This document shows, piece by piece, positions 14,081-56,835 of a stretch of 64,000 bases of DNA. The position numbers and the translations under genes are program-made. The stretch spans positions 1 through 64,000 of the forward strand of contig JAJQIH010000041.1 of the NCBI GenBank assembly GCA_021199305.1. The letters are read 5' to 3'. The notes below the pieces were generated by a model. The model saw only the letters and a program-made list of their open reading frames with translations. It was not told the origin of the DNA and made no database searches. Numbering within the stretch: the stretch's first letter is position 1; every line of letters starts with the position of its first letter. The stretch is from Ruminococcus sp. (lineage in GTDB: Bacteria; Bacillota; Clostridia; Oscillospirales; Ruminococcaceae).

Positions 14081-15433
14081 TTAATTCTCCTGTCTTGCCG
14101 TTGTGTCAATGCTGCGAAACAGCGTATATTCACCGAGCCACGCTAAGTTTACCGTTCCCGTTTCGCCGTGTCTGTTTTTGGATACTATACACTCGGCTTC
14201 ACTTTGATTTTCCGCCTCCTTGTTGTAATATCCGTCACGGTACAAAAACAGAACTATATCTGCGTCCTGCTCGATAGAACCCGATTCACGAAGGTCTGCG
14301 AGCATCGGACGGTGGTCCTGTCTGTTTTCTGGTCCTCTGGCAAGCTGTGAAAGGCAGATAACCGGCACGTTAATTTCCTTCGCCATAAGCTTAAGCTGCC
14401 TTGTGATTTCAGAAACCTCGTTTACTCTGTTTGAATGATTTCCAACGCTTTCCATCAGCTGTAAATAGTCAATTATTACAAGTCCCAAGTTCCTCATTCG
14501 GCGAAGCTTTGCCTTCATCTGAGGAACTGTAATTCCGCCTGTATCGTCAATATAAATCGGCAGCTCGGACAGCGCCGCTGCGCCGGCAGCAAGCTTGTTC
14601 CAGTCCTCAACCTCCAGATAACCTGAGCGAAGAGATGTATTGCTGACTAACGCTTCGCTTGAAAGCATTCTGGTTACAAGCTGCTCCTTACCCATTTCGA
14701 GCGAGAATACAGCTACCTCTTTGTTGCTTCTTTTGCACATATTAACGGCGATATTAACCGCAAACGCAGATTTTCCGACACCCGGTCTTGCCGCTAGGAT
14801 TATAAGGTCAGAATTGTTAAGTCCGCCTGTTATCCTGTCAAGCTGAGAAAAGCCAGACTTTGCGCCTAAATACTTTTCCTTGTCCTCGCCTGTTATCTGC
14901 TGCAGATGCTGATAGGAATCCAGGATAATGCTGTCGATCTTAGTAAGTCCCTCAGCGTCCTTGCCTTTTCTTATATCGTAGATTTTTTGCTCTGCGCTGT
15001 CAAGAAGCGTCTTTGCATCAAGAGAAGCATTTTCAGCGTTGTCTATAATTTCCCTCGCCGCTAAAATCAACGAGCGAAGGTAGTATTTCTCCTCTAAAAT
15101 GTCGCAGTAGCTTTCAATATTTGAAACGCTTGGAACGCTTTCCGCCATACCCTTCAGGTAGGTTCTCGCCATAACGTCCGTTTCAAACACGCCCATTTTC
15201 TGAGCTTCGTTGGCTACTGTCAATATGTCGACATTCTGGTTTGAGGTGAACATTCTTTGCATAATTGCAAAAATTGCTCTGTGCTGCTCGCTGTAAAAGA
15301 AGTCAGCCTTTACCCGTTCAATAACGACAGGCAGTGCTTTTTTGGCATCGATAAGTATTCCGCCTAAGACGGTCTGCTCGGCTTCTAAGCTTACAGGCAG
15401 CGAGGAAACGCCTATATCAGTTGTAAAGTCCAT
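14081..15433 (-). CDS. dnaB: Replicative DNA helicase DnaB (DnaC in Bacillus naming)
   Basis: Hexameric helicase that opens the replication fork. In this 450-aa protein the N-terminal domain (SLEAEQTVLGGIL) is followed by the RecA-like core with Walker A AARPGVGKSAFA near residue 210 and Walker B LVIIDYLQLM, and the LAKEINVPVICLSQL-like motif that follows it (seen here as MAKEINVPVICLSQL). No intein is present and length is normal. GAGGG precedes the ATG. It sits 17 nt after rplI; gdpP-rplI-dnaB is a common grouping in Firmicutes and supports the call. Confidence 0.96.
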   Translation of the reverse strand: MDFTTDIGVSSLPVSLEAEQTVLGGILIDAKKALPVVIERVKADFFYSEQHRAIFAIMQRMFTSNQNVDILTVANEAQKMGVFETDVMARTYLKGMAESVPSVSNIESYCDILEEKYYLRSLILAAREIIDNAENASLDAKTLLDSAEQKIYDIRKGKDAEGLTKIDSIILDSYQHLQQITGEDKEKYLGAKSGFSQLDRITGGLNNSDLIILAARPGVGKSAFAVNIAVNMCKRSNKEVAVFSLEMGKEQLVTRMLSSEALVSNTSLRSGYLEVEDWNKLAAGAAALSELPIYIDDTGGITVPQMKAKLRRMRNLGLVIIDYLQLMESVGNHSNRVNEVSEITRQLKLMAKEINVPVICLSQLARGPENRQDHRPMLADLRESGSIEQDADIVLFLYRDGYYNKEAENQSEAECIVSKNRHGETGTVNLAWLGEYTLFRSIDTTARQEN

Positions 15434-15450
15434 TTTTTTACCCTCAAAAA

Positions 15451-15900
15451 TTACTCTTCACTAACGCTTACCTTAACCGCAAAGGAAACTCCCTGTGAAA
15501 GCTTTACATCGGCTTCGTAATCGCCGAAAGCCTTTATATCTCCGCCCTTCAAGGATATTTTCTTCTTGTCAAGCTTTATATTGTATGCCTTTTCAATTTC
15601 CTGAGAAATAACGCTTGGCGTTACCGCTCCGAAGAGCTTTCCGCCGTTACCAGCCTTCGCCTTGATAGAAATTGTCTTTCCGCTTAACGCTTTTGAAATG
15701 CTCTCGTTCTCAGACTTCTGAACGTCTATCTTATGCTGAACTGACGACTGCTGACCTTTAAGTACGTTTAAGTTCTTGTTTGTAGCTTCTGCGGCTAATC
15801 CCTTAGCCAGCAAAAAGTTTCTTGCGTATCCGTCAGCGACGTTTTTAATCTCTCCAGCCTTGCCGGAGCCCTTTACGTCCTTTAAAAATATAACCTTCAT
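15451..15900 (-). CDS. rplI: 50S ribosomal protein L9
   Basis: Large-subunit ribosomal protein that binds 23S rRNA near the L1 stalk. The 149-aa sequence begins [18 protein letters not shown] and has the N-domain [14 protein letters not shown] signature, the central helix and the C-terminal domain. I chose the ATG at 15900 over an in-frame TTG two codons earlier because AGGTAGG lies 8 nt before the ATG and L9 proteins begin MKVI. It is placed between gdpP and dnaB in one operon. Confidence 0.97.
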
Positions 15901-15953
15901 ATTCAAAACCTACCTTTCCAAAAAGTAAATATTAAAAATTCAAAATCAATGTG

Positions 15954-17930
15954 CTAAGCCTTTTCAGCGTAGCCTTCCACATTTTGTGCAAGCACTTCCT
16001 TCAGCTTTTCCTTGGCTTCGTCAATCGGCATATTAACCTGAGTTGCCGCCATATTGTGATGTCCGCCGCCGCCGAGCGCTTCCATAATAACCTGTACGTT
16101 TACATCACCCATACTTCTTGCGCTCATAGCGGTCATAGCGTTGCTTTCGTACAAAACAAACGAAGCCTTGATTCCTGAAATTCCTAAAAGCTCGTCCGCC
16201 GCCTGCGCCGCCGCAAGTCTTACAGCATCGTTGTTTCCGTCGCCCGTTGCAATAGCACAGGAGCCGTAAAGCTCCGCTTCGCTTATAAGCTTTGACTTTT
16301 CTCTGTATGTATCAATAGGCGTTGCGAACATCGTTTTGACAGCTATTGTATCTGCACCCTGTCGCTTCAAGTACGCTGCCGCCTCAAAGGTTCTTACACC
16401 TGTCTTCATAACGAAGTTTTTGGTATCAAGCATAATTCCTGCAAGCAGGCTTTCAGCAATGTGCGGTTTAAGGGTAGTATTCTCAGATAAATACTGAACA
16501 AGCTCAGCGACCATTTCAGAAGCAGAAGAAGCGTTAGGCTCGTTGTAGAAAATAACTGCGTTTTCTATGGAATTTACCATTCTTCTGTGGTGGTCGACAA
16601 CAATAACCTTGTCGAACATCCGATAAAACTCTGTGCTGTCCAAAATATCAGGATTGTGCGTATCAACAATTATAAGTGCGCTATCGTCGGTTTTCATCGT
16701 CATCGCCATCTGAGGAGGTATGTAATATGTATCCTTCTCATTTTCATTTATGTGGTTTATCATAACCGTTGCGAGATTGGATTCAAGGTCACAGACTACA
16801 AACGACTGCTTGCCAAGATTTCTTATAGCTGCGCAAAGTCCGGTTGCCGAACCGATACTGTCAAGGTCGCCGTTTCGATGTCCCATTATAAATACCGTAT
16901 CCGACTCCTTTATTGCTTCGGAAATAGCGTTTGCGATTACACGGCTTCTGACCTTGGTTCTTCGCTCATAGCCCTTAGATACTCCGCCGAAAAACTCAAA
17001 GCCTGATTTGTTCCTGATTGCCGCCTGATCGCCGCCTCTTCCGAGACACATATCAAGCGCCTGCTTGGCATAAGCTTCGCTTTGGGAAAGAGTATCGGCA
17101 TCCTTTCCGATTCCGATAGAAAATGTTATCGGCTGACTTCCGCCAACCAAAATATCTCTCGCCTTGTTAAGAATATCGAATTTATCCTCAATGCACTTTC
17201 TCAGATGTCTTTCTTCAATTACAATTACGAACCTCGACGAGGAAATATTTACAGCTATTCCAGTGGTTGAATCTATAAAGTCCTCAACCAGCCTTTCGAT
17301 TTCGCCGACGATTGTACTTTTTTCGCTCGCTCTTGAATTCTGAAGCGCATCGTCATAGTTGTCGACAGAAATTATCATAACGGACGGATGAGAAAGGGTA
17401 TATTCGTCCTGCAAGCTTTTAAACTCGGTCTCGTCGTTGAGGTAAATCATTATAAGACCGTTTACCTCCCTTTCGGGACGTGTAGCTCTCGCTATAAAAT
17501 ATCTGTCGTGGATTTTAACTACCGTTCCCTGCTCGTGAAACATCATATCGAAGTTTACGGTAAACAGCTCTGAAACCTTTCTGCCAAAGGCTTCCTTTTC
17601 GGAAAAAAGCTCTCTTGAAAAGCTTTCGTTTACCCAGACTACCGTTCTGCTTTCGTCAACTATCAGAACAGGCGCTGGAAAGTTAAACAGCGTTTCCCTT
17701 TGAGTGTACTTTAAGTCGTGCGACATTTTAGCAATGTACTTAAGCTTTCTGTTTTCGCTGACGATAAAATATATCATAATTACAGCAAGCATTACTATAT
17801 CGACAATAAAAGCTGCAATTCCAACATTTTTATTGCCGTCTCCTGCAATTATATAAAACGCAGAAAGTACCGCCGATATTCCTAGCAGCAAAAGCGCCGC
17901 AATCAAAGGTATCTGGGCTTTCTTTTTCAT
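15954..17930 (-). CDS. gdpP: Cyclic-di-AMP phosphodiesterase GdpP (DHH family)
   Basis: Hydrolyses the second messenger c-di-AMP. The 658-aa protein has two membrane helices (about residues 8-28 and 38-57), a PAS-like domain (about 75-165), a degenerate GGDEF domain (about 175-315) in which the signature reads GRGGDQAA, and DHH/DHHA1 domains with HRNGDLDS near 351, VDTHNPD, VDHHRR and a terminal GGGGHHNMAA. The mutated GGDEF motif and intact DHH metal ligands are as in known GdpP proteins. GGAGG precedes the ATG. It lies 45 nt downstream of the RNase J gene and 53 nt upstream of rplI. Confidence 0.93.
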   Translation of the reverse strand: MKKKAQIPLIAALLLLGISAVLSAFYIIAGDGNKNVGIAAFIVDIVMLAVIMIYFIVSENRKLKYIAKMSHDLKYTQRETLFNFPAPVLIVDESRTVVWVNESFSRELFSEKEAFGRKVSELFTVNFDMMFHEQGTVVKIHDRYFIARATRPEREVNGLIMIYLNDETEFKSLQDEYTLSHPSVMIISVDNYDDALQNSRASEKSTIVGEIERLVEDFIDSTTGIAVNISSSRFVIVIEERHLRKCIEDKFDILNKARDILVGGSQPITFSIGIGKDADTLSQSEAYAKQALDMCLGRGGDQAAIRNKSGFEFFGGVSKGYERRTKVRSRVIANAISEAIKESDTVFIMGHRNGDLDSIGSATGLCAAIRNLGKQSFVVCDLESNLATVMINHINENEKDTYYIPPQMAMTMKTDDSALIIVDTHNPDILDSTEFYRMFDKVIVVDHHRRMVNSIENAVIFYNEPNASSASEMVAELVQYLSENTTLKPHIAESLLAGIMLDTKNFVMKTGVRTFEAAAYLKRQGADTIAVKTMFATPIDTYREKSKLISEAELYGSCAIATGDGNNDAVRLAAAQAADELLGISGIKASFVLYESNAMTAMSARSMGDVNVQVIMEALGGGGHHNMAATQVNMPIDEAKEKLKEVLAQNVEGYAEKA

Positions 17931-17975: not shown

Positions 17976-19979
17976 CTAAACCTCCATAATTATCGGAAGT
18001 ATCATCGGACTTCGCTTTGTCTTTTGATAAATGTATCCCGAAAGCGACTCCTTCATTTTATTTTTCATCGTACTCCACTCGTAAACTGAATTGTCGAGGA
18101 AACCCTTTAAGCAGTCGTACAAAAGGTCCTTCGCTCCGTCGAGCAGCTCTTCGGCTTCTCTGACGTAAACAAAACCTCTTGAAACGATGTCGGGGCCTGA
18201 AACGATAGTGCGGTTTTTGCTGTCTATTGCCGCTACTGCAATTATAAGTCCGTCCTCCGCCAGATGCTTTCTGTCGCGAAGAACAATAACTCCGACATCT
18301 CCGACTCCCAGTCCGTCTACCAAAACCTTTCCAGCAGGAACGGTACCCGTTATTTTCATATCCACTCCGTCAGTTTCAATAACGCTTCCCAAGTCCGCCA
18401 TAATTATGTTTTTGTAGTCGATTCCTGTGGAATGCGCCGTCTGAGCGTGGCGTGAAAGATGCTTATACTCGCCGTGAACAGGGATAAAATACTTCGGCTT
18501 TACAAGAGAAAGCAGCATCTTCTGCTCCTCCTGACAAGCGTGTCCTGAAACGTGAACGTCGTACATCGACTCGTATATCACCTCTGCTCCAAGGCGCATC
18601 AAGCTGTTTACTACATTAGTAACTCCCTTTTCGTTTCCAGGGATAGGAGTAGCTGAAATTATAATAAAGTCCTGAGGGGTAATGGTTACCTGTCTGTGCT
18701 CGTTTCTTGCCATTCGGGTAAGCGCAGACATCGGCTCGCCCTGACTTCCTGTTGTAATAATAACAAGCTCCTCAGGCGAATACCTGTTTATCTCCTCAAT
18801 GTCAATCAGAATGCTGTCAGGGCATTTCAGGTAGCCTAGCTCTCTGCCCTTTTGCATTACGTTTACCATACTTCTGCCTGATACGGCAACCTTTCTGCCG
18901 TCCTTGATAGCTCTGTCGATTATCTGCTGAACACGGTGAATGTTAGATGCAAAGGTTGCAATTATAATTCTCTTGCCGTCGGCTCTCTGGAAAAGCCTTG
19001 AAAAGCTTTCTCCGACCTTTCTTTCACTCATAGTAAAGCCAGGGCGCTCGGAGTTCGTAGAGTCTGACATTAGTGCTAAAACTCCCCTGTTTCCAAGCTC
19101 CACAAATCTCGCAAGGTCGATAGCTCCGCCCTCAATCGGCGTAAAGTCGACCTTGAAGTCGCCTGTATGAATCAAAATTCCAGCCGGTGTAAAAATTGCC
19201 AGACCGACAGCGTCCGGAATAGAATGATTAACCCTGATAAGCTCAACCGCCATGCAGCCGAATTTTATTGTATCTCCAGGCTTTACGACAGAAAGCTGAA
19301 CGCTGCCTAAAAGACCCGCTTCCTTGAGCTTTCCTTCAACAAGACCAATAGTGAGCCTTGTTCCGTAAACCGGTACGTTTATTTTGTTGAGAAAATAAGG
19401 AAGTCCTCCGATGTGGTCCTCGTGTCCGTGAGTCAGGACGATTCCCCTTATTTTTTCGACGTTTTTCTCAAGATAAGTATAATCAGGTAAAACGAGGTCA
19501 ACGCCCAGCATTTCAGAGTCAGGAAATTCAAGTCCGCAGTCGATGATGAAAATGTCGTTAGAGCATTCTATTACAGTCATATTCTTTCCGATTTCGTTAA
19601 GTCCTCCAAGCGGAATTATTTTAACCGGAGTCGAGCGTTTTACTTCCTTTTTGCGCTGTGTATTTTGTACAGTTTTATTTGTCGTTTTTGTCTTTTTTGT
19701 CTTTGAATCGGTGCGGCTGGATTTTGCCTTTTGAGTCTGCTGCTTTGTAGTCTGCTTTTTTGACTTTTTAGTGTTAGCTTGCGCTGACGTTTGCGCCGAG
19801 GATTTTTTCTCAGCAGCTTTTTTGCTTGCTGTCGCATTTACTTCGGGTACGTCAATAGTAAAAAGACCGGTAAGCTCGTCGTCATAAGTTCCGTCCAACG
19901 ACTTCTGCCTCAGATCTCTTTTCGCCGCTGCTCTATCGTATTTCGGACGCTTAGAGTAGCTCTTATTTAATTTTGTCAT
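17976..19979 (-). CDS. rnj: Ribonuclease J with long basic N-terminal extension
   Basis: Metallo-beta-lactamase/beta-CASP 5' exonuclease and endonuclease of RNA turnover. The catalytic core begins near residue 119 (KIIPLGGLNEIGKN) and has the THGHEDHIGG metal motif at 183-192, MSDSTNSERPG and the PVHGEYKHL segment. At 667 aa it is about 110 residues longer than the usual ~555 aa. The extra N-terminal part (1-117) is rich in Lys, Thr, Gln and Ser with almost no hydrophobic residues from 50 on, so it is probably disordered and may bind RNA. The start at 19979 has AAAGGA about 12 nt upstream and overlaps by ATGA the stop codon of a small upstream ORF. Clostridial RNase J; I cannot say J1 or J2. 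Confidence 0.92.
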   Translation of the reverse strand: MTKLNKSYSKRPKYDRAAAKRDLRQKSLDGTYDDELTGLFTIDVPEVNATASKKAAEKKSSAQTSAQANTKKSKKQTTKQQTQKAKSSRTDSKTKKTKTTNKTVQNTQRKKEVKRSTPVKIIPLGGLNEIGKNMTVIECSNDIFIIDCGLEFPDSEMLGVDLVLPDYTYLEKNVEKIRGIVLTHGHEDHIGGLPYFLNKINVPVYGTRLTIGLVEGKLKEAGLLGSVQLSVVKPGDTIKFGCMAVELIRVNHSIPDAVGLAIFTPAGILIHTGDFKVDFTPIEGGAIDLARFVELGNRGVLALMSDSTNSERPGFTMSERKVGESFSRLFQRADGKRIIIATFASNIHRVQQIIDRAIKDGRKVAVSGRSMVNVMQKGRELGYLKCPDSILIDIEEINRYSPEELVIITTGSQGEPMSALTRMARNEHRQVTITPQDFIIISATPIPGNEKGVTNVVNSLMRLGAEVIYESMYDVHVSGHACQEEQKMLLSLVKPKYFIPVHGEYKHLSRHAQTAHSTGIDYKNIIMADLGSVIETDGVDMKITGTVPAGKVLVDGLGVGDVGVIVLRDRKHLAEDGLIIAVAAIDSKNRTIVSGPDIVSRGFVYVREAEELLDGAKDLLYDCLKGFLDNSVYEWSTMKNKMKESLSGYIYQKTKRSPMILPIIMEV

Positions 19980-20179
19980 ATAAAAAATATATCCTTTCTT
20001 TCCTTTAAAAATTTCCCTATACGCATATTTCCGTTCGGCGTATAATGGATTAAAACAACTCCATTTGTGGAGTAAGATTCTGTAAATTCTGTAAAATGAA
20101 AAATCCCGGGCCATAACAAAAGCTGAAATTCAAGCGGCTCGGGTATGTTTGAAAGACTAAAACTGTTTCGTTTTATCAT
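19976..20179 (-). CDS. Small upstream ORF overlapping the RNase J start
   Basis: A 67-codon ORF from the ATG at 20179 ends in TGA that overlaps the RNase J ATG (ATGA), the usual sign of translational coupling. It lies fully in the leader between the consensus promoter and RNase J and spans the terminator-like hairpin at 20093-20143. No good ribosome binding site is seen; AGGGTGAG is about 12-14 nt before the ATG. The segment IPEPLEFQ and the NGVVLI...MRIGKFL stretch faintly recall YlzJ, which is encoded near rnjB in B. subtilis, but I do not consider the match proven. It could also be a chance frame or a leader peptide. Confidence 0.35.
   Translation of the reverse strand: MIKRNSFSLSNIPEPLEFQLLLWPGIFHFTEFTESYSTNGVVLIHYTPNGNMRIGKFLKERKDIFFI
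20093..20143 (-). terminator. Terminator-like hairpin in the RNase J leader
   Basis: On the minus strand CCCGAGCC pairs with GGCCCGGG (one mismatch) and is followed by ATTTTTCATTTT. It lies downstream of the TTGACA/TATAAT promoter at 20246-20274 and about 115 nt upstream of RNase J, so it may act as an attenuator, or else end transcripts of the upstream gene. A second small hairpin (ACTCCA/TGGAGT, 20057-20073) follows. Confidence 0.5.
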
Positions 20180-20245: not shown

Positions 20246-20274
20246 ATTATAACCACTTTATTCCTCTTTGTCAA
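20246..20274 (-). promoter_or_regulatory. Perfect consensus sigma-A promoter of the RNase J operon
   Basis: TTGACA - 17 nt - TATAAT on the minus strand, a full match to consensus. The -35 is embedded in the last codons (Leu-Asp-Lys) of the upstream gene. The leader before RNase J is about 260 nt. Confidence 0.9.
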
Positions 20275-21397
20275 GATTTATTCGGCTTACATAGCCTTCT
20301 ATTTCGTCACAGATTGAGCTTGCAGCTTCAAAGCTTAAAGCGTCGGCAAACAAAACGAGTCCCTTTTTTCCCTTGTCAAGCTTTACTCTCGCCTTTCCGA
20401 TACTGCTGACCCGCTCTTTATTTTCGTTCAGAAATTTTGACTCAAGCATTTTATTTATTTTATCCTCGCTTTTTTCTCCCGTATAAATATAGCGTTCGGA
20501 AAAATATACCTTCGGTACGTCCTCAAGCGCTTCGCTCAGCGACAGCTTGTTTTTACCAAGATGGTCAAGAATCTTTGTCATAAGATAAAAGCTGTCGGTC
20601 AGGAATCTGTTGTGGGCATTTATCTCAAGACTTTCTCTGTTTTCGGCTCTTGTAAGTCTGCCCGAAAGGGTATCAGCCGCCTGTGGGAAGTATTCCGGAA
20701 CCTCGACCTCCACGCCCTTTTCAAGCTCAATTTTTGCAGCCATCAGCAAAAGCGTTTCGTAAAACACATAGCCTGACCTGTCGCTGTAGGCTGAAACCTT
20801 TTTGCAGTCGAGCGAAAAGTTAAAAACTATCTCCTCGGCACCCAGGTCGTTTTTATCCCTTATCACCTCGTCAAAAAGCTTTGCTACAAGCGGCGACGCA
20901 GTTTTAACACTCGCTCGTATATTTTTTATGCTCTTGAAATTCTTAAGCAGGTCAAGCTCGTAAAGAGTCACCATATCGTTTACTATTTTGATTTTTCCGC
21001 TTTGAGCAGGCTTTACCTTTTTGTAGTCGTTTGAATGGTAGTGAGCTGTTACCTCGTTCAGAAAATCCAGACTCAGGCCGCTTCCCAACGCACCCTTTGC
21101 ACTGACGCTTATATGACTTCCCGAACGGATGTGTATACACTCATCTGTATGAAGCTTATATGCTGCATATTCCGACATAAATTCTTCACTTTCAGGCACT
21201 ATAAAGCAATCGTTTTTGCAAGCTGATATTGCCGACGAGATTAAAAAGGCGTAAATGTCTGAGCCTCTGTTTCGGCAATAGCCTACTGTGACCTTGCTGT
21301 TTTCCTTAAGCGACGAACCTACCGCCAGGCCGAACCTATACGCTTCAAGCGGAGAGAATAATCTGCCTTGTGCGTTTGAAAAGTTAAAATCATCCAT
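20258..21397 (-). CDS. Unannotated protein resembling a degenerate phosphohexomutase
   Basis: I recognise no named gene. The 379-aa protein lines up by pattern with the alpha-D-phosphohexomutase fold, for example GlmM in this window: SPLEAYRFGLAVG (15-27) with the GlmM region before the active site, CIHIRSGSHIS (87-97) with the SASHN catalytic loop, EIVFNFSLDCKKVSAYSD (189-206) with the DGDADR metal loop, and LVLFADALSFEAAS (347-360) with the RESGTEP phosphate loop. Only the Ser-x-Ser-His of the first loop survives; the Asp metal ligands and phosphate-binding Arg are gone, and it is about 70 residues shorter. I infer a pseudoenzyme or a strongly diverged member. Start at 21397 follows AAGGGGG by 8 nt; no clear promoter seen. 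Confidence 0.55.
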   Translation of the reverse strand: MDDFNFSNAQGRLFSPLEAYRFGLAVGSSLKENSKVTVGYCRNRGSDIYAFLISSAISACKNDCFIVPESEEFMSEYAAYKLHTDECIHIRSGSHISVSAKGALGSGLSLDFLNEVTAHYHSNDYKKVKPAQSGKIKIVNDMVTLYELDLLKNFKSIKNIRASVKTASPLVAKLFDEVIRDKNDLGAEEIVFNFSLDCKKVSAYSDRSGYVFYETLLLMAAKIELEKGVEVEVPEYFPQAADTLSGRLTRAENRESLEINAHNRFLTDSFYLMTKILDHLGKNKLSLSEALEDVPKVYFSERYIYTGEKSEDKINKMLESKFLNENKERVSSIGKARVKLDKGKKGLVLFADALSFEAASSICDEIEGYVSRINLDKEE

Positions 21398-21540
21398 AAT
21401 ATAAGCCCCCTTAGCTTTTTCTTTTAGCATAATAATTGGTAAAAACTCACCTGTTATTCATTCTCTTCTCACGCTACGCAAGAAATAAAGCGATATATTT
21501 TGAAAAATAATGACAAAAGTATGGTATTTTCCAAAAAAAT

Positions 21541-21550
21541 GTGGTATGAT
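21541..21550 (+). promoter_or_regulatory. Possible extended -10 promoter of nadB operon
   Basis: TGTGGTATGAT holds an extended -10 (TG-G-TATGAT) about 65 nt before nadB; no good -35 is at 17 nt. An imperfect repeat (TATGGTATTTT / TGTGGTATGATTATTTT) in 21519-21556 could be an operator. The 183-nt gap to the divergent gene holds nothing else I can name. Confidence 0.45.
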
Positions 21551-21614
21551 TATTTTTGAGCGAAATTTTTACTCAATTCAAATATATTCAACACAGAAAG
21601 GTCGTGTCATTTTT

Positions 21615-23129
21615 ATGAATAATTATGACGTTATAATTGTAGGAAGCGGCGCAGCAGGTCTTTATTCAGCGATAAATCTCTCTGAAAACCTGCGGATTTT
21701 ACTACTTTCAAAATCTGAACTTTCTCTTTGTAATTCTTCACTTGCACAGGGAGGAATTGCAGGCGTTTATAATTCTCCAACCGATTCCCCTGAATATCAC
21801 AAGCATGATACCTTCGTTGCGGGAGGATTTGAAAACAATCCGAAAACAACCACTATACTTGTAAACGAAGCGCATATAGATATTGAGCGGATAATAAATC
21901 TCGGAGTGGATTTTGACAAAACCCCGGACGGCGACTATCACAGAACGCTTGAAGGCGGTCACGGCAAGCATAGAATTTTCCACCACAAGGATTCAACAGG
22001 AAATGAAATAACGACCAAGCTTCGCGAGTACGTTTTATCGCTTGAAAATGTCGACGTTATTGATAATGCGCTTGTGTGCGGAGTCAAAAAATCGCACCAC
22101 GGCTTTTCCTTCAACGTGCTTCGTGACGGAGTTTATACAACCTATCACTCTCACTTCAGCATTTTTGCGACAGGCGGAATTGGCAGAGTTTACGAGTATA
22201 CTACAAACTCTGCTATTGCAACAGGCGACGGAATATCATTTGCCTACAATATGGGTGCTAAGATTTCAAATCTCAGCAGCATACAATTTCACCCGACGGC
22301 GTTTAACGACAAAAGTTCAAGGGAGTGCTTCCTGATTACAGAAGCCGTTCGTGGCGAGGGCGCTTATTTAAAGAACTGCCACAAGCAGAGATTTATGCAA
22401 AACTACGACGACAGACTGGAGCTTGCACCGAGAGATGTTGTTTCACACTCGATAATTTTTGAAGAGCAGAAAACCGGCAGCGACAAGTTCTACATCGATA
22501 TAACTCACAAGGATCCGGAATTTGTAAAGAACCGCTTCCCGATGATTTATTCAAAGCTTTTGGAAGCAGGCTACGATATGACGACGGATCTGATTCCTAT
22601 TTACCCCTGTCAGCACTACCTGATGGGCGGAATTGCTGTAAACGAATACTCTGAAACGACAATAGATAATCTGTTCGCTTGCGGCGAATGCTCGCATACA
22701 GGAGTTCACGGCAACAACAGACTTGCTTCAAATTCTCTTATGGAGGCTCTTGTATTTTCAAGGCGTGCAGCAAACGTCATAAACGAGCGTGCAAAGGGTA
22801 TGAAGCGAAGCTACAGCGAATACGAATTCAAGCAGCCTGAGGGAGCCGAGCATATTCCTACAGGAATAAGAACCCGCATCAGAAGCATTATGCAATCGGC
22901 TTACTTTGTAATGCCGAATATCGAAAAGCTGTTTTCTGGGTTGGACGAAATATTCAGGATAAAGGAAATGCTCGAAAACGGAAACTTTATCATTGACAAG
23001 GACTACACAGAAGCAAGATCGCTTGCTACTGTAGCTTACATTATTTTATCCGAAGCTAACAAAACCGCTACTGAAAGTCTTGAGCTTAAAACTCAGGACT
23101 GGGTAGAGCACGAGCTTAACAATTACTAA
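21615..23129 (+). CDS. nadB: L-aspartate oxidase NadB
   Basis: FAD flavoenzyme that oxidises aspartate to iminoaspartate, first step of de novo NAD synthesis. The 504-aa protein opens with the dinucleotide-binding VGSGAAGLYSA, and has SSIQFHPTAF, APRDVVSHSI, PCQHYLMGG and GNNRLASNSLMEA, which hold the His/Arg residues of the active site. It is slightly shorter than usual: the C-terminal helical domain lacks the ESRGxHYR-type stretch and reads ANKTATESLEL instead. The ATG at 21615 is chosen because the protein then starts at the flavin fold; AAAGG is about 13 nt upstream. First gene of nadB-nadC; no nadA is in the window, so quinolinate synthase must be elsewhere. Confidence 0.93.
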   Translation: MNNYDVIIVGSGAAGLYSAINLSENLRILLLSKSELSLCNSSLAQGGIAGVYNSPTDSPEYHKHDTFVAGGFENNPKTTTILVNEAHIDIERIINLGVDFDKTPDGDYHRTLEGGHGKHRIFHHKDSTGNEITTKLREYVLSLENVDVIDNALVCGVKKSHHGFSFNVLRDGVYTTYHSHFSIFATGGIGRVYEYTTNSAIATGDGISFAYNMGAKISNLSSIQFHPTAFNDKSSRECFLITEAVRGEGAYLKNCHKQRFMQNYDDRLELAPRDVVSHSIIFEEQKTGSDKFYIDITHKDPEFVKNRFPMIYSKLLEAGYDMTTDLIPIYPCQHYLMGGIAVNEYSETTIDNLFACGECSHTGVHGNNRLASNSLMEALVFSRRAANVINERAKGMKRSYSEYEFKQPEGAEHIPTGIRTRIRSIMQSAYFVMPNIEKLFSGLDEIFRIKEMLENGNFIIDKDYTEARSLATVAYIILSEANKTATESLELKTQDWVEHELNNY

Positions 23130-27600: not shown

Positions 27601-27920
27601 TAATAACTTAAAAGAATAAATCCGATGAACAAAGGTAAGTAGCTTTTTTCACGATGTCACAGAGAGTCGGCGGCGGTGGAAGTCCGATACAAAAGGAAAT
27701 CAGTGAATGGATTTGCGAGGAGCTGGGTGAAATCATTTTTTGAAATTATCCTTAGCCGTGTGTTTTCTGCGTTAAAGGAAAGAAGTATTGATACATATTA
27801 AATGTTGCGTACTTTCTGAGCCGATTTTTAAAATCGGGAATTTGGGTGGCACCACGAAGATTTCGTCTATCGTCCCAAAAGGATTTTTGTAATCCTTTTG
27901 GCGATAGACTTTTTTATTGC
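27601..27920 (+). promoter_or_regulatory. Trp-specific T-box leader
   Basis: A T-box riboswitch that reads uncharged tRNA-Trp and controls trp transcription. Stem I begins at AGAGAG (27661) with a GGTGG apical part; a TGG codon at 27708-27710 is the likely specifier. The T-box core GGGTGGCACCACG is at 27844-27856; its UGGC would pair with GCCA, fitting the G discriminator of bacterial tRNA-Trp. The terminator GTCTATCG...CGATAGAC (27865-27909), with inner CCAAAAGGAT/ATCCTTTTGG pairing, is followed by T6. Confidence 0.93.
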
Positions 27921-29437: not shown

Positions 29438-31075
29438 ATGATAGTAATGATTGACAATTATGACAGCTTTACCTATAATTTATATCAGTATATCGGTCAG
29501 CTTCATAAGGACATTTTGGTTTTCAGAAACGACGAGATTACAATTCCTGAGATCGAAGCGCTAAAGCCTGATGCTATTGTAATTTCCCCAGGGCCAGCTT
29601 TTCCAAAGGACGCAGGAATTTCAATAGAGGTAATAAAGCACTTTGCAAAAACCACTCCTATTCTTGGAGTTTGTTTAGGACATCAGGCGATTGCAGAGGC
29701 GTTTGGCGGAAAGGTTGTAGTTGCAAAAAGGCAGCTTCACGGAAAATCATCAGTTGTAAAGATTGACGCTTCCTCTCCGATTTTCAAAGGACTGAAAAGC
29801 AACATAACCGTTGCGAGGTACCATTCTCTTATCGTTGAGAAAGCAACGCTTCCTGATACGCTTAAGATAATTGCCGTTGACCCTGACGGCGAAATAATGG
29901 CTATCAAGCACAAGGAATACGACGTTTACGGAGTGCAGTTCCACCCCGAATCAATATTAACAAAAGAAGGTATGATTATTATGAAGAACTTTTTAAACGA
30001 GGTTGTCGGCCTCAAAACCGACGAAAAGCAGGAACCGCTTCCAACAGAGCAGAGAACCGAGCTTAAGCCGCTTATTGCAAAGGCAGTTGACGGCGAGCAT
30101 CTCACTCAGGAAGAGGCAAGGCAGGCAGTTGACATTATTATGAGCGACAGAGCTACAAACGCTCAGACAGCAGCTTTACTTACTGCTATGCGAATGAATG
30201 TTGAAACTCCTGAAGAAATTACAGGCTGTGCGCTTGGTATGCGCGGAAAGATGACTCCTGTTGAGCATGACGAGCCTGTGCTTGAAATTGTCGGAACAGG
30301 CGGAGATCTGGCTGGAAGTTTTAACATTTCGACAACATCTATGTTTGTAATTGCTTCGAGCGGGCAGGCGGTTGCAAAGCACGGAAACAGAAGCGTTTCC
30401 TCAAAGAGCGGAGCAGCAGACGTTTTAGAGGAGCTTGGAGTAAAGATTGCTTCAACACCAGAGGAGGCTTCAAAGAGCATAAAGGAAATCGGAATTTCAT
30501 TCCTGTTCGCTCAGAGCTTTCACAAGGCAATGCGCTTTGTTGGCCCTGTAAGAGGACAGATTGGCGTTCGTACAGTTTTTAACATTTTAGGACCTCTTAC
30601 AAATCCTGCTGACGCTGAGTACAACATCATCGGCGTATATGAAGAACGACTGCTTGAAATTGTTGCTAATGTTCTTAAAAACCTGGGAGTCAAGCATTCG
30701 CTTGTCGTTCACGGCGACGACGGACTTGACGAGCTTTCAATTTCCGACTGCACTACCGTTTGCGAAATTGACGGCGACGAGATTAAAAAGTACAGCATTT
30801 CTCCTGAGTCGGTCGGCTTAAAGAGAGGAAGCAAGTCGGATATTGTCGGCGGAAATGCCAGCGAGAACGCTCAGATTACGCTTGGAATTTTAAAGGGCGA
30901 AATCCGTGAAGCAAAGCGTGATATTGTTCTGTTAAACTCTGGTGCTGCACTTTATGTAAGCGGCAAGGCTGACAGCATTGAAGCGGGCGTAAAGCTTGCA
31001 GGAGAGCTGATTGATAACGGCTCGGCATACAAGAAGCTTGAGCAGCTTATAGAATTTTCCAACAGGGTGCAGTAA
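29438..31075 (+). CDS. trpGD: TrpG-TrpD fusion: glutamine amidotransferase plus anthranilate phosphoribosyltransferase
   Basis: A 545-aa bifunctional protein. Residues 1-190 are the TrpG class I glutamine amidotransferase with GVCLGHQAI (catalytic Cys) and VQFHPES (His, Glu). After a short charged linker (about 193-210) comes TrpD, with VGTGGDLAGSFNIST (PRPP-binding glycine loop), KHGNRSVSSKSGAADVLE and FLFAQSFHKAMR. Fusions of this kind also occur in enterobacteria (E. coli TrpGD). It starts 20 nt after trpE and ends one nt before trpC, so the whole operon is tightly packed. Confidence 0.96.
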   Translation: MIVMIDNYDSFTYNLYQYIGQLHKDILVFRNDEITIPEIEALKPDAIVISPGPAFPKDAGISIEVIKHFAKTTPILGVCLGHQAIAEAFGGKVVVAKRQLHGKSSVVKIDASSPIFKGLKSNITVARYHSLIVEKATLPDTLKIIAVDPDGEIMAIKHKEYDVYGVQFHPESILTKEGMIIMKNFLNEVVGLKTDEKQEPLPTEQRTELKPLIAKAVDGEHLTQEEARQAVDIIMSDRATNAQTAALLTAMRMNVETPEEITGCALGMRGKMTPVEHDEPVLEIVGTGGDLAGSFNISTTSMFVIASSGQAVAKHGNRSVSSKSGAADVLEELGVKIASTPEEASKSIKEIGISFLFAQSFHKAMRFVGPVRGQIGVRTVFNILGPLTNPADAEYNIIGVYEERLLEIVANVLKNLGVKHSLVVHGDDGLDELSISDCTTVCEIDGDEIKKYSISPESVGLKRGSKSDIVGGNASENAQITLGILKGEIREAKRDIVLLNSGAALYVSGKADSIEAGVKLAGELIDNGSAYKKLEQLIEFSNRVQ

Positions 31076-39239: not shown

Positions 39240-39457
39240 ATAAAAAGCTTTGAAGGGATTTATCTGAGTTTTGCGATTTTCAGAGAAAAGGCGGTTGGTG
39301 AAAGCCTTTAATCTGCAACTTGGTGGCTGACCCTGAGCTTCGATGTAAACATCGACGTTTTCCTGCGTTAAAGGTTTCGAGTGGCAGATTTCTGCAACTT
39401 GGGTGGTACCGCGAATTCTAAGTTCGTCCCAGGAGTATGGGATGGACTTTATTTTTT
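39240..39457 (+). promoter_or_regulatory. Ala-specific T-box leader
   Basis: T-box core GGGTGGTACCGCG at 39401-39413; its UGGU would pair with ACCA, fitting the A discriminator of tRNA-Ala. A GGTTGGTG apical element lies in 39292-39299. Candidate specifiers are GCT (39326-39328), flanked by CCC/CTTC that can close with GAAGGG near 39250, or GCA (39315-39317). Terminator hairpin 39426-39447 (GTCCCA...TGGGATGGAC) followed by TTTATTTTTT. Confidence 0.9.
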
Positions 39458-54272: not shown

Positions 54273-55628
54273 CTATACGCCGAAGCTCTTGCTTATTGCC
54301 TCAGCGATAGTTTTTGCGTATTCGGTAATTTTACCTAAATGCTTTCCTTCAAGCATTACTCTGACAAGCGGCTCAGTGCCCGACTCTCTTACTAAAATTC
54401 TTCCGTCGTCGCCAAGCTTTTCCTTGTACATCTCTATAAATTCGGCAACTCCCTTGTCTGTCTGCCAGTTGCCCTTATACTCGCTCTTTATCGTTACGTT
54501 TTCAAGAACCTGCGGATATGTTTCCATAACAGATGCCAGCTCAGAGAGCTTTTTCTTTGTCTTAGCCATAACTTCAAGCAGCTTGACTCCAGTCATTTCG
54601 CCATCGCCCGTATTTGCGTAATCAAGCATAATAATATGACCCGACTGCTCACCGCCTAAATTGTAGCCGCCCCTTTGCATTTCCTCTAAAACGTATCTGT
54701 CGCCAACTCCTGTTCTTGCGACAACTACATTTTCCTTCTTGGCGTACTTCATAAAGCCTAAATTCGTCATAACCGTTACAACGCAGGTATTGGAATTGAG
54801 CGTACCACAAGCCTTCATATACTTTGAGAAAATTGCCAATAGCTTATCGCCGTCAACAACCTCTCCCTTTTCGTCGACAGCAAGACATCTGTCAGCGTCG
54901 CCGTCAAAGGCAAGACCAACGTGGCACTTGTTGTCAACTACGTATTTTCTTAGCTGCCCCATATGAGTTGAGCCGCAGTCACGGTTTATATTAGTTCCGT
55001 CAGGGTCGTTATTTATAAAGTAGCAGGAAGCTCCAAGTCCCTGAAACAGCTTTGTAGCGCAGTCGCTGGCAGCTCCGTTTGCGCAGTCGATAGCTACCTT
55101 TATTCCTCTGAAGTCGCAGTCAACCGACTTCATAATGTGTCTTAAATAATCCCAGACGGCGTTCTTCTCGTGAATAATTTTGCCAATCGCTATGCCGTCC
55201 TTCAGCGTTATCTCATCAGGTGTGTCGAGAATAAGCTTCTCAATTTCGTTTTCAACGCTGTCAGGAAGCTTAAAGCCTTCGCTTGAAAACAGCTTGATTC
55301 CGTTAAACTCAACCGAGTTGTGCGAAGCTGAAATCATAACTCCTGCGTCTGCGTCGTACTTTTCGACAAGAACCGCTACCGCCGGAGTTGGTATAACACC
55401 CAGCAATACAGCGTCAGCACCAACCGAACAAATTCCAGCTACCAATGCCGACTCCAGAACGTCGCTTGAAATTCTGGTATCCTTGCCGATTATAATCTTC
55501 GCCTTATCTCTCTTTGAATGGCGAGTGAGTACAACCGCCGCTGCTCTGCCTATTTTCATTGCAAGCTCGCAGGTAAGCTCAGTAATTGCAACTCCTCTGG
55601 CTCCGTCTGTTCCAAATAATCTTCCCAT
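54273..55628 (-). CDS. glmM: Phosphoglucosamine mutase GlmM
   Basis: Interconverts glucosamine-6- and -1-phosphate on the way to UDP-GlcNAc for cell wall. The 451-aa protein starts MGRLFGTDGARGVA and has the catalytic serine Ser102 in ISASHNSVEFNGIK, the metal loop AFDGDADRC, the sugar loop GGEQSGHI and the phosphate loop RESGTEPLVRV. All key residues are present, which makes it a good internal reference for the degenerate homologue at 20258-21397. It has its own promoter (55679-55706), separating it from ruvA. Confidence 0.97.
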   Translation of the reverse strand: MGRLFGTDGARGVAITELTCELAMKIGRAAAVVLTRHSKRDKAKIIIGKDTRISSDVLESALVAGICSVGADAVLLGVIPTPAVAVLVEKYDADAGVMISASHNSVEFNGIKLFSSEGFKLPDSVENEIEKLILDTPDEITLKDGIAIGKIIHEKNAVWDYLRHIMKSVDCDFRGIKVAIDCANGAASDCATKLFQGLGASCYFINNDPDGTNINRDCGSTHMGQLRKYVVDNKCHVGLAFDGDADRCLAVDEKGEVVDGDKLLAIFSKYMKACGTLNSNTCVVTVMTNLGFMKYAKKENVVVARTGVGDRYVLEEMQRGGYNLGGEQSGHIIMLDYANTGDGEMTGVKLLEVMAKTKKKLSELASVMETYPQVLENVTIKSEYKGNWQTDKGVAEFIEMYKEKLGDDGRILVRESGTEPLVRVMLEGKHLGKITEYAKTIAEAISKSFGV

Positions 55629-55678
55629 TTTGCGTCTGTCCCTTTCCCTGTTTATATTTTTTATTGCCGAAAGGCAAT

Positions 55679-55706
55679 ATTCTACAAGTATTCAAGCTTC
55701 TGTCAA
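55679..55706 (-). promoter_or_regulatory. Promoter of glmM and the downstream run
   Basis: TTGACA - 16 nt - TAGAAT on the minus strand; the -35 overlaps the end of ruvA. A short ATTGCC/GGCAAT hairpin at 55663-55678 sits around the expected start point. Confidence 0.7.
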
Positions 55707-56299
55707 TTTCCCGACAGAACCTTTAATCCGCCCTTTATAAGCTCCTCAACCGACAAATCCTTGTCAAGCTTTGCAATGGCAGTAGCAGCTTCGCTTTGAG
55801 TATAACCAAGAGTTACAAGCGCAAGCACCGCCTGTTCGGCATTCGGGAAGCCGTCAGTATCAAAGCTGACGTCGGCGTTTTCACCTAAAAGCTCCGTTTC
55901 CTTAGAAACCTTATCCTTTAGTTCAAGCGTAATTCTCTGAGCTACCCTCGGGCCTACTCCCTTTGCCTTTGTAAACGCTTTTGAATCTCCTGTAGCTACC
56001 GCTAAAGCAAAGCTCTGAGGCGTTAAGACGGACAGAATTGCAAGTCCTGCCTTTGGCCCTACTCCAGAAACGGAGGTCAGAAGCCTGAAAGCGTTAAGCT
56101 CATCATAAGTTGCAAAGCCGTAGAGCGATAAATCGTCCTCACGTACCGCTAAATGCGTATACAAGGTAGCGCTTGTTTTTGAACTGAGAGCCGAAAGAGT
56201 TGTAAGCGTGGTGTTTACGTAGTAGCCTATTCCGCCGCACTCGACAACTACCATATCGCTTCCTCTATAAGTAATATTTCCTGTTATGCTGTATATCAT
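55703..56299 (-). CDS. ruvA: Holliday junction DNA-binding protein RuvA
   Basis: Tetramer that binds the four-way junction and loads RuvB. The 198-aa protein starts MIYSITGNITYRGSDMVVVE (OB fold) and has two helix-hairpin-helix motifs, VSGVGPKAGLAIL and AKGVGPRVAQRITLELKDK, plus a C-terminal three-helix domain (AVLALVTLGYTQSEA) that contacts RuvB. It overlaps ruvC by 4 nt, so the two are translationally coupled. Confidence 0.97.
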   Translation of the reverse strand: MIYSITGNITYRGSDMVVVECGGIGYYVNTTLTTLSALSSKTSATLYTHLAVREDDLSLYGFATYDELNAFRLLTSVSGVGPKAGLAILSVLTPQSFALAVATGDSKAFTKAKGVGPRVAQRITLELKDKVSKETELLGENADVSFDTDGFPNAEQAVLALVTLGYTQSEAATAIAKLDKDLSVEELIKGGLKVLSGN

Positions 56300-56796
56300 A
56301 TGTATTTCTCCAGATTTTTAAGTGTATTAAATGACGAATGTCCGTGAGTAATCGCCAGCGCCAGGGCGTCCGCCGTATCGTCAGGCTTTGGAACCTTGCT
56401 GAGCTTTAAAATAGAACGTGTAAGCTCCTGAACCTGCTTTTTCTCAGCTCTTCCATAGCCTACTACTGCCTGCTTTACCTGTAATGGCGTATATTCGCTG
56501 ATTTTAATTCCCCGCTGAACTGCCGGCAGGAGTGTAACTCCTCTCGCCTGCGCTACGTCAATTCCCGTCTTTTGATTGGTATTGAAAAACAGCTTTTCAA
56601 TTCCCATTTCCTCAGGCTTATACGTGTCGAGAATTTCGCACATATCGTCATAAATTGACTTTAGCCTCAGCTCAAACGGCGAACCAGCAGGAGTGGTAAT
56701 TGCTCCAAAATCGACGACAGTGAACTCATTGCAGTCATAATCCAATATTCCAAATCCTACTATCGCATAGCCTGGATCTATACCGATTATCCGCAA
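56296..56796 (-). CDS. ruvC: Crossover junction endodeoxyribonuclease RuvC
   Basis: Holliday junction resolvase. I choose the TTG at 56796: the protein then begins (M)RIIGIDPGYAIVG as the family does, is a normal 166 aa, and AGGGTGAT lies just before it. A frame open to an ATG at 56835 would add 13 residues that fit nothing. The acidic catalytic residues are visible in GIDPG, GIEKLFFNTN and the C-terminal DDTADALALAITH. Promoter at 56836-56864. Confidence 0.95.
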   Translation of the reverse strand: MRIIGIDPGYAIVGFGILDYDCNEFTVVDFGAITTPAGSPFELRLKSIYDDMCEILDTYKPEEMGIEKLFFNTNQKTGIDVAQARGVTLLPAVQRGIKISEYTPLQVKQAVVGYGRAEKKQVQELTRSILKLSKVPKPDDTADALALAITHGHSSFNTLKNLEKYI

Positions 56797-56835
56797 AAAA
56801 TCACCCTCTCGCCAATTTAAAATATACATACTCAC

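Follow-up and report, generated by a model that had tools for sequence, protein, structure and literature searches.

The window analysed here is a stretch of 64,000 nucleotides from a Ruminococcus sp. contig (JAJQIH010000041.1). It contains an open frame for a protein of 379 aa, which we refer to as PHM-like (PHM, alpha-D-phosphohexomutase), together with the neighbouring genes and sequence features collected in Table 1. The frame recorded in the initial annotation is real, with the correction that it lies on the minus strand. Its longest form extends to position 21430, and the start used here is backed by relatives of 379 aa in three other species. Upstream lies the divergent nadB gene, and downstream are the genes for RNase J and a GdpP-type c-di-AMP phosphodiesterase, followed by rplI and dnaB. 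The listed frame of RNase J probably has its true start internally, which would give a protein of ~668 aa, and the N-terminus of this frame (about 19640-20114, minus strand) consists of a long Lys-rich low-complexity extension.

Table 1. Features of the locus and the comparison gene, with coordinates in the window.
Feature	Coordinates	Strand	Basis or remark
rplI and dnaB, remainder of the conserved family block	14081..15906	-	
GdpP-type c-di-AMP phosphodiesterase	15954..17930	-	Next gene in the conserved block
RNase J	17976..20114	-	712 aa as listed
Sigma-70-type promoter, TTGACA-N17-TATAAT	20246..20274	-	12/12 match
PHM-like pseudoenzyme gene (predicted)	20258..21397	-	379 aa; putative standalone remnant of an NTase-LbH-PHM fusion
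KLDKGKK codons, residues 339-345, aligned with the GlmM phosphate loop RESGTEP	20363..20383	-	Alignment
SLDCKK codons, residues 195-200, aligned with the GlmM Mg2+ loop DGDADR	20798..20815	-	Alignment; hhalign
RSGSHIS codons, residues 91-97, site of the lost or shortened phosphoserine loop	21107..21127	-	Alignment; model
nadB	21510..23129	+	Divergent upstream neighbour of the PHM-like gene
Genuine GlmM, all catalytic motifs, comparison protein	54273..55628	-	Pfam and NCBIfam

Elsewhere in the window, T-box leaders (Rfam RF00230) are present at 27616-27880 and 39241-39434, both on the plus strand. The first precedes a trpE-like gene, and a 545-aa frame at 29438-31075 (plus strand) reads as a TrpG-TrpD fusion. 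The glmM gene, correctly placed in the initial annotation, is intact and also on the minus strand. In this region (54273-56835, minus strand) it adjoins genes reading as ruvA and ruvC and not cdaA-cdaR, the usual context of glmM being a cdaA-cdaR-glmM operon.

The PHM-like protein had been assigned to no recognised family. This holds for Pfam, where the 379-aa sequence has no match, but not entirely for NCBIfam, which gave a single weak, collinear match to archaeal GlmM (TIGR03990, E 1.4e-4, residues 262-338); the GlmM model TIGR01455, with which the true GlmM scores 548 bits, had no match to it. Pairwise comparison was similarly uninformative, the similarity to the window GlmM being invisible to BLASTP (E 0.37). 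A phmmer search of PDB with the single sequence gave no match and an alignment was needed: a profile of the relatives, which within the genus are found at E 1e-32 to 1e-222, matched solved phosphohexomutases at E ~1e-32. The family profile also aligned collinearly with the window GlmM in hhalign (P 97.7%, E 1.8e-12), and relatives of the fused type described below match Pfam PGM_PMM_I. The AlphaFold model of the protein (pLDDT 89, pTM 0.87) gave a best Foldseek E of 5e-21, with phosphohexomutases in all of the matches listed. VIA-align superimposed 370 residues on 9du5 (Z 30.1, rmsd 4.4), returning four-domain PHMs; all 50 matches listed were PHMs, with Z 25-30 for GlmM and other phosphoglucosamine mutases, and a GlmM-CdaA complex was among the fold matches. 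The initial annotation had proposed a phosphohexomutase homologue, to be checked by structure prediction, Foldseek and a profile search, and each of these pointed to the four-domain phosphohexomutase rather than to an unrelated fold. The protein thus resembles GlmM and the other bacterial and archaeal phosphoglucosamine mutases over nearly its full length, in fold and in profile homology, but it is shorter (379 vs ~450 aa) and has lost the phosphoserine, Mg2+, sugar and phosphate loops. We conclude that the gene is predicted, from sequence and model together, to encode a four-domain alpha-D-phosphohexomutase-fold protein that is catalytically dead.

The alignment with GlmM shows the state of these loops. 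In the PHM-like family the phosphoserine loop, T(S)ASHNP, is shorter by ~7 residues, and its motif is absent from the window protein and its relatives. At the position of the Mg2+ loop DGDGDR the window protein reads SLDCKK, and the relatives are degenerate. The sugar-specificity loop of domain 3, GEXSGH (the GEQSGH region of GlmM), is deleted, and KLDKGKK occupies the place of the domain 4 phosphate loop RxSGTEP. In the model, short turns between strands are found at the phosphoserine-loop and phosphate-loop sites, RSGSHIS itself forming a tight turn between two strands. The earlier proposal that the Mg2+ and phosphate sites are lost is therefore borne out, whereas only one of the three motif pairings on which it was based agrees with the alignment, namely that of SLDCKK with DGDADR. 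The pairing of RSGSHIS with ISASHNS was fortuitous: with the loop ~7 residues shorter, the likeness of SGSH to SASH is due to chance. In other standalone species the SGSH of the window pair reads SGAC, SAAS or SSAS. Likewise, LFADALSFEA is misregistered as a counterpart of RESGTEP, lying ~10 residues too far along, and RESGTEP aligns with KLDKGKK. None of the motifs TASHNP, DGDGDR and RxSGTE was found in any of the relatives, fused or standalone, examined across Clostridia, and for this reason the loss of the catalytic loops is judged to be common to the whole family examined, neither species-specific nor recent. Since domain 3 has lost its sugar-binding loop and the phosphate loop is rewritten, it is also doubtful that the protein still binds a sugar phosphate.

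Most relatives of the PHM-like protein are not standalone but form the C-terminal part of proteins of ~750-850 aa, which combine a nucleotidyltransferase (NTase), a left-handed beta-helix (LbH) and the PHM-like domain. Among NCBIfam models, mannose-1-phosphate guanylyltransferase fits the NTase part best, though below cut-off. The PHM-like domain is kept in every one of the 15 genus genomes, fused in 10 and standalone in five, the window genome included. In the latter the NTase and LbH have been lost from the gene, and the standalone protein begins with FNFSNAQGRLFSP, a stretch that corresponds in the alignment to the linker in fused relatives. In several members of the genus nadB is also the upstream neighbour of the fused gene. 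The window protein shares with the fusion family an orthologous C-terminal domain, its location upstream of RNase J and its clade, but has neither NTase nor beta-helix. A relocated NTase-LbH module was sought in all five standalone genomes and was not found elsewhere in them; the best match was an unrelated-looking NTP_transferase frame, presumably GlgC-like by its size and neighbours, and a match of similar level was present in a fused genome. By these comparisons the window protein is judged to be what remains of a larger fusion, not a duplicate of GlmM that has decayed, the NTase and LbH having been deleted in the ancestor of the five species.

The same kind of loss has occurred repeatedly. 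Searching with the single protein detected relatives in 61 of 198 sampled genomes of the Ruminococcaceae-level family, and a profile of 40 relatives raised this to 77. About a dozen further standalone loci with the frame kept were found elsewhere in this family, and standalone genes are also present in one other Clostridia family. There, two loci have an independent standalone gene (404-418 aa frame), followed immediately by an RNase J frame of 715 aa. In a tree built from 85 domains, 11 changes are required to account for the standalone state, and well-supported branches force at least nine of them. One row counted as standalone (L075), however, keeps a stretch of beta-helix in a frame of 568 aa and is better left out, which brings the number to about eight or more. 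Loss of the NTase signature needs seven changes on the same tree, at least six of them forced. Some branches are long and individual placements uncertain, and the program warns of two long-branch joins. As read from this tree, the NTase part was lost about eight or more times independently, usually at the site beside RNase J, with the PHM-like part kept.

This history bears on one reading of what the domain does, that it evolved as the allosteric or structural part of the fused NTase and that the standalone form regulates sugar-nucleotide synthesis by acting in trans on a different nucleotidyltransferase, for instance GlgC/GlgD, GalU or GlmU. Such a role would fit the fusion of most relatives to an NTase with an intact signature, the several other NTP_transferase proteins in the window genome and, in one other family, a glycosyltransferase gene between the fusion and RNase J. 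However, the 10 fused members of the genus have lost the NTase signature GGxGTRL while keeping the PHM-like part, as have other lineages, so that regulating this NTase is not the shared function there; moreover, none of the standalone genes inspected is flanked by an NTase gene of this type. We regard this reading as possible, though on the unlikely side.

Within the Ruminococcaceae-level family the usual gene order is PHM-like gene, RNase J, GdpP, rplI and dnaB. RNase J was directly downstream of the PHM-like gene in 54 of the 66 family genomes where this could be judged, and the position upstream of RNase J noted in the initial annotation recurs across the loci of the genus. Many loci in other Clostridia families likewise have RNase J directly downstream, in an order such as hslV, hslU, codY, sometimes fur, the fusion, RNase J and mltG (names read from the sequences). 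RNase J is thus the constant neighbour across families and the remaining neighbours differ. At one locus of another family (L101), a GT4-type glycosyltransferase gene separates the NTase-PHM fusion from RNase J.

Overlapping the 3' end of the PHM-like gene is a sigma-70-type promoter that probably drives RNase J, to judge from its sequence and position. Its -35 box falls within the last codons of the PHM-like gene (..NLDKEE*), as it does in all five standalone species of the genus, and most family loci with RNase J next to the gene have a perfect or near-perfect promoter at the corresponding position. The invariant tail RINLDKEE is explained by this embedded box, and we therefore ruled out its conservation as evidence about the protein. 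With a promoter of its own for RNase J, the two genes need not be co-transcribed. The interval between them gave no Rfam match to a structured RNA leader, and its folding z was only -1.1. RNase J does not need the PHM-like gene, since it is present in 188 of the 198 family genomes and the latter in 77. Nor did the Lys-rich extension of RNase J appear, by eye, to track the gene, RNase J frames being about as long in family genomes that lack it.

Conservation and dN/dS had been suggested as a means of showing that the gene is under selection. Besides its presence throughout the genus, comparison with the nearest species gave a dN/dS of 0.15, against 0.02-0.09 for neighbouring genes (the value for RNase J in this comparison is an alignment artefact and was disregarded). 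This indicates purifying selection, looser than that on the neighbours. Alternatively, the gene could be a decaying relic, its remainder drifting after loss of the NTase and its frame surviving because the loss is recent and the RNase J promoter lies in its 3' end. A dN/dS several-fold above that of most neighbours, the patchy distribution (77/198), the long stem of the clade and the promoter-bearing tail, its most conserved part, would all be consistent with decay. Yet the ratio is still 0.15, the frame is full length in five species with identity as low as ~41%, about a dozen other standalone loci have also kept theirs, and the model is confidently folded. We think decay quite unlikely.

Two further readings fare worse. 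A PHM-fold protein could act in the c-di-AMP pathway, with GdpP as its target or, in the manner of GlmM, the cyclase. Most family loci have GdpP two genes downstream, and CdaA is bound and inhibited by GlmM, a protein with this fold (PMC8573169), the complex of the two being among the fold matches. Outside the Ruminococcaceae-level family, however, GdpP is absent from the neighbourhood while RNase J still adjoins, which leaves such a partnership very improbable. Least probable of all, and barely credible, is an active enzyme with migrated catalytic residues or another reaction in the PHM fold: the columns Y146, D268, E357 and C363 are invariant and a basic motif, IRPxKSGKG, is common at the former phosphate loop in the Ruminococcaceae-level family, but the PHM active-site loops are shortened, deleted or divergent and this motif is kept neither in the window protein nor outside that family.

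The results presented above favour, overall with good confidence, a model whereby the gene encodes a PHM pseudoenzyme that is a remnant of a fusion and has been retained for a non-catalytic function. That it is a pseudo-PHM remnant under selection is highly probable. A non-catalytic binding or regulatory role is rather probable, because the PHM-like part has outlived the NTase again and again, which argues for a conserved function residing in this part. The suggestion in the initial annotation of a non-catalytic regulator or scaffold is strengthened by the same repeated loss. Most likely, the protein would bind another protein, and a small ligand might gate this binding. RNase J, the sole neighbour constant across families, would be the best candidate, with GdpP second; the PHM-like protein might then influence RNase J in the way that GapA modulates RNase J1, or behave like GlmM towards CdaA. 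Gene order makes a partnership with RNase J plausible, but the separate promoter of RNase J and the many genomes that have RNase J and lack the PHM-like gene weaken the case, and we put forward RNase J as a physical partner only tentatively, as a rather unlikely proposition. Indeed, the adjacency of the two genes may reflect chromosomal inertia, and a dN/dS of 0.15 vs 0.02-0.09 also fits a loosely constrained or dispensable protein.

Several known systems offer precedents. PGM5 (aciculin), a vertebrate inactive phosphoglucomutase, is thought to act through binding partners (PMC7761743); like the window protein, by prediction, it has a PHM fold without mutase activity, but it is eukaryotic and of independent origin, and its active site is conserved and binds substrate, whereas in the window protein the loops are gone. 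GlmM and CdaA set a precedent in Firmicutes for the PHM fold as a protein regulator, although GlmM is an active enzyme. In Bacillus subtilis, GapA binds and modulates RNase J1 (PMC8152036), a precedent for a metabolic-enzyme fold modulating RNase J; the fold is unrelated, and the link in our case is one of gene adjacency alone. In a literature search with most subscription journals outside its reach, we found no description of a bacterial pseudo-PHM family, no report of the NTase-LbH-PHM fusion and none of a link between RNase J and a pseudo-PHM.

Inactive phosphohexomutases are known in animals (PGM5), and a bacterial family of them may be new. One practical consequence is that apparent nucleotidyltransferase/phosphomannomutase fusions in such genomes probably have no mutase activity. 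The retention of a dead domain while the adjacent enzyme domain repeatedly decays or disappears is unusually clear natural evidence that a pseudoenzyme has its own function. More speculatively, and in our estimation improbably, the Clostridia-wide family could serve RNase J as a dedicated partner that responds to metabolites and so links RNA decay to the status of sugar phosphates or sugar nucleotides, the NTase half having been shed repeatedly since only the pseudoenzyme half matters. The long-lived site beside RNase J provides a specific and cheap hypothesis, that RNA decay in Clostridia may be tied to sugar metabolism via the PHM-like protein.
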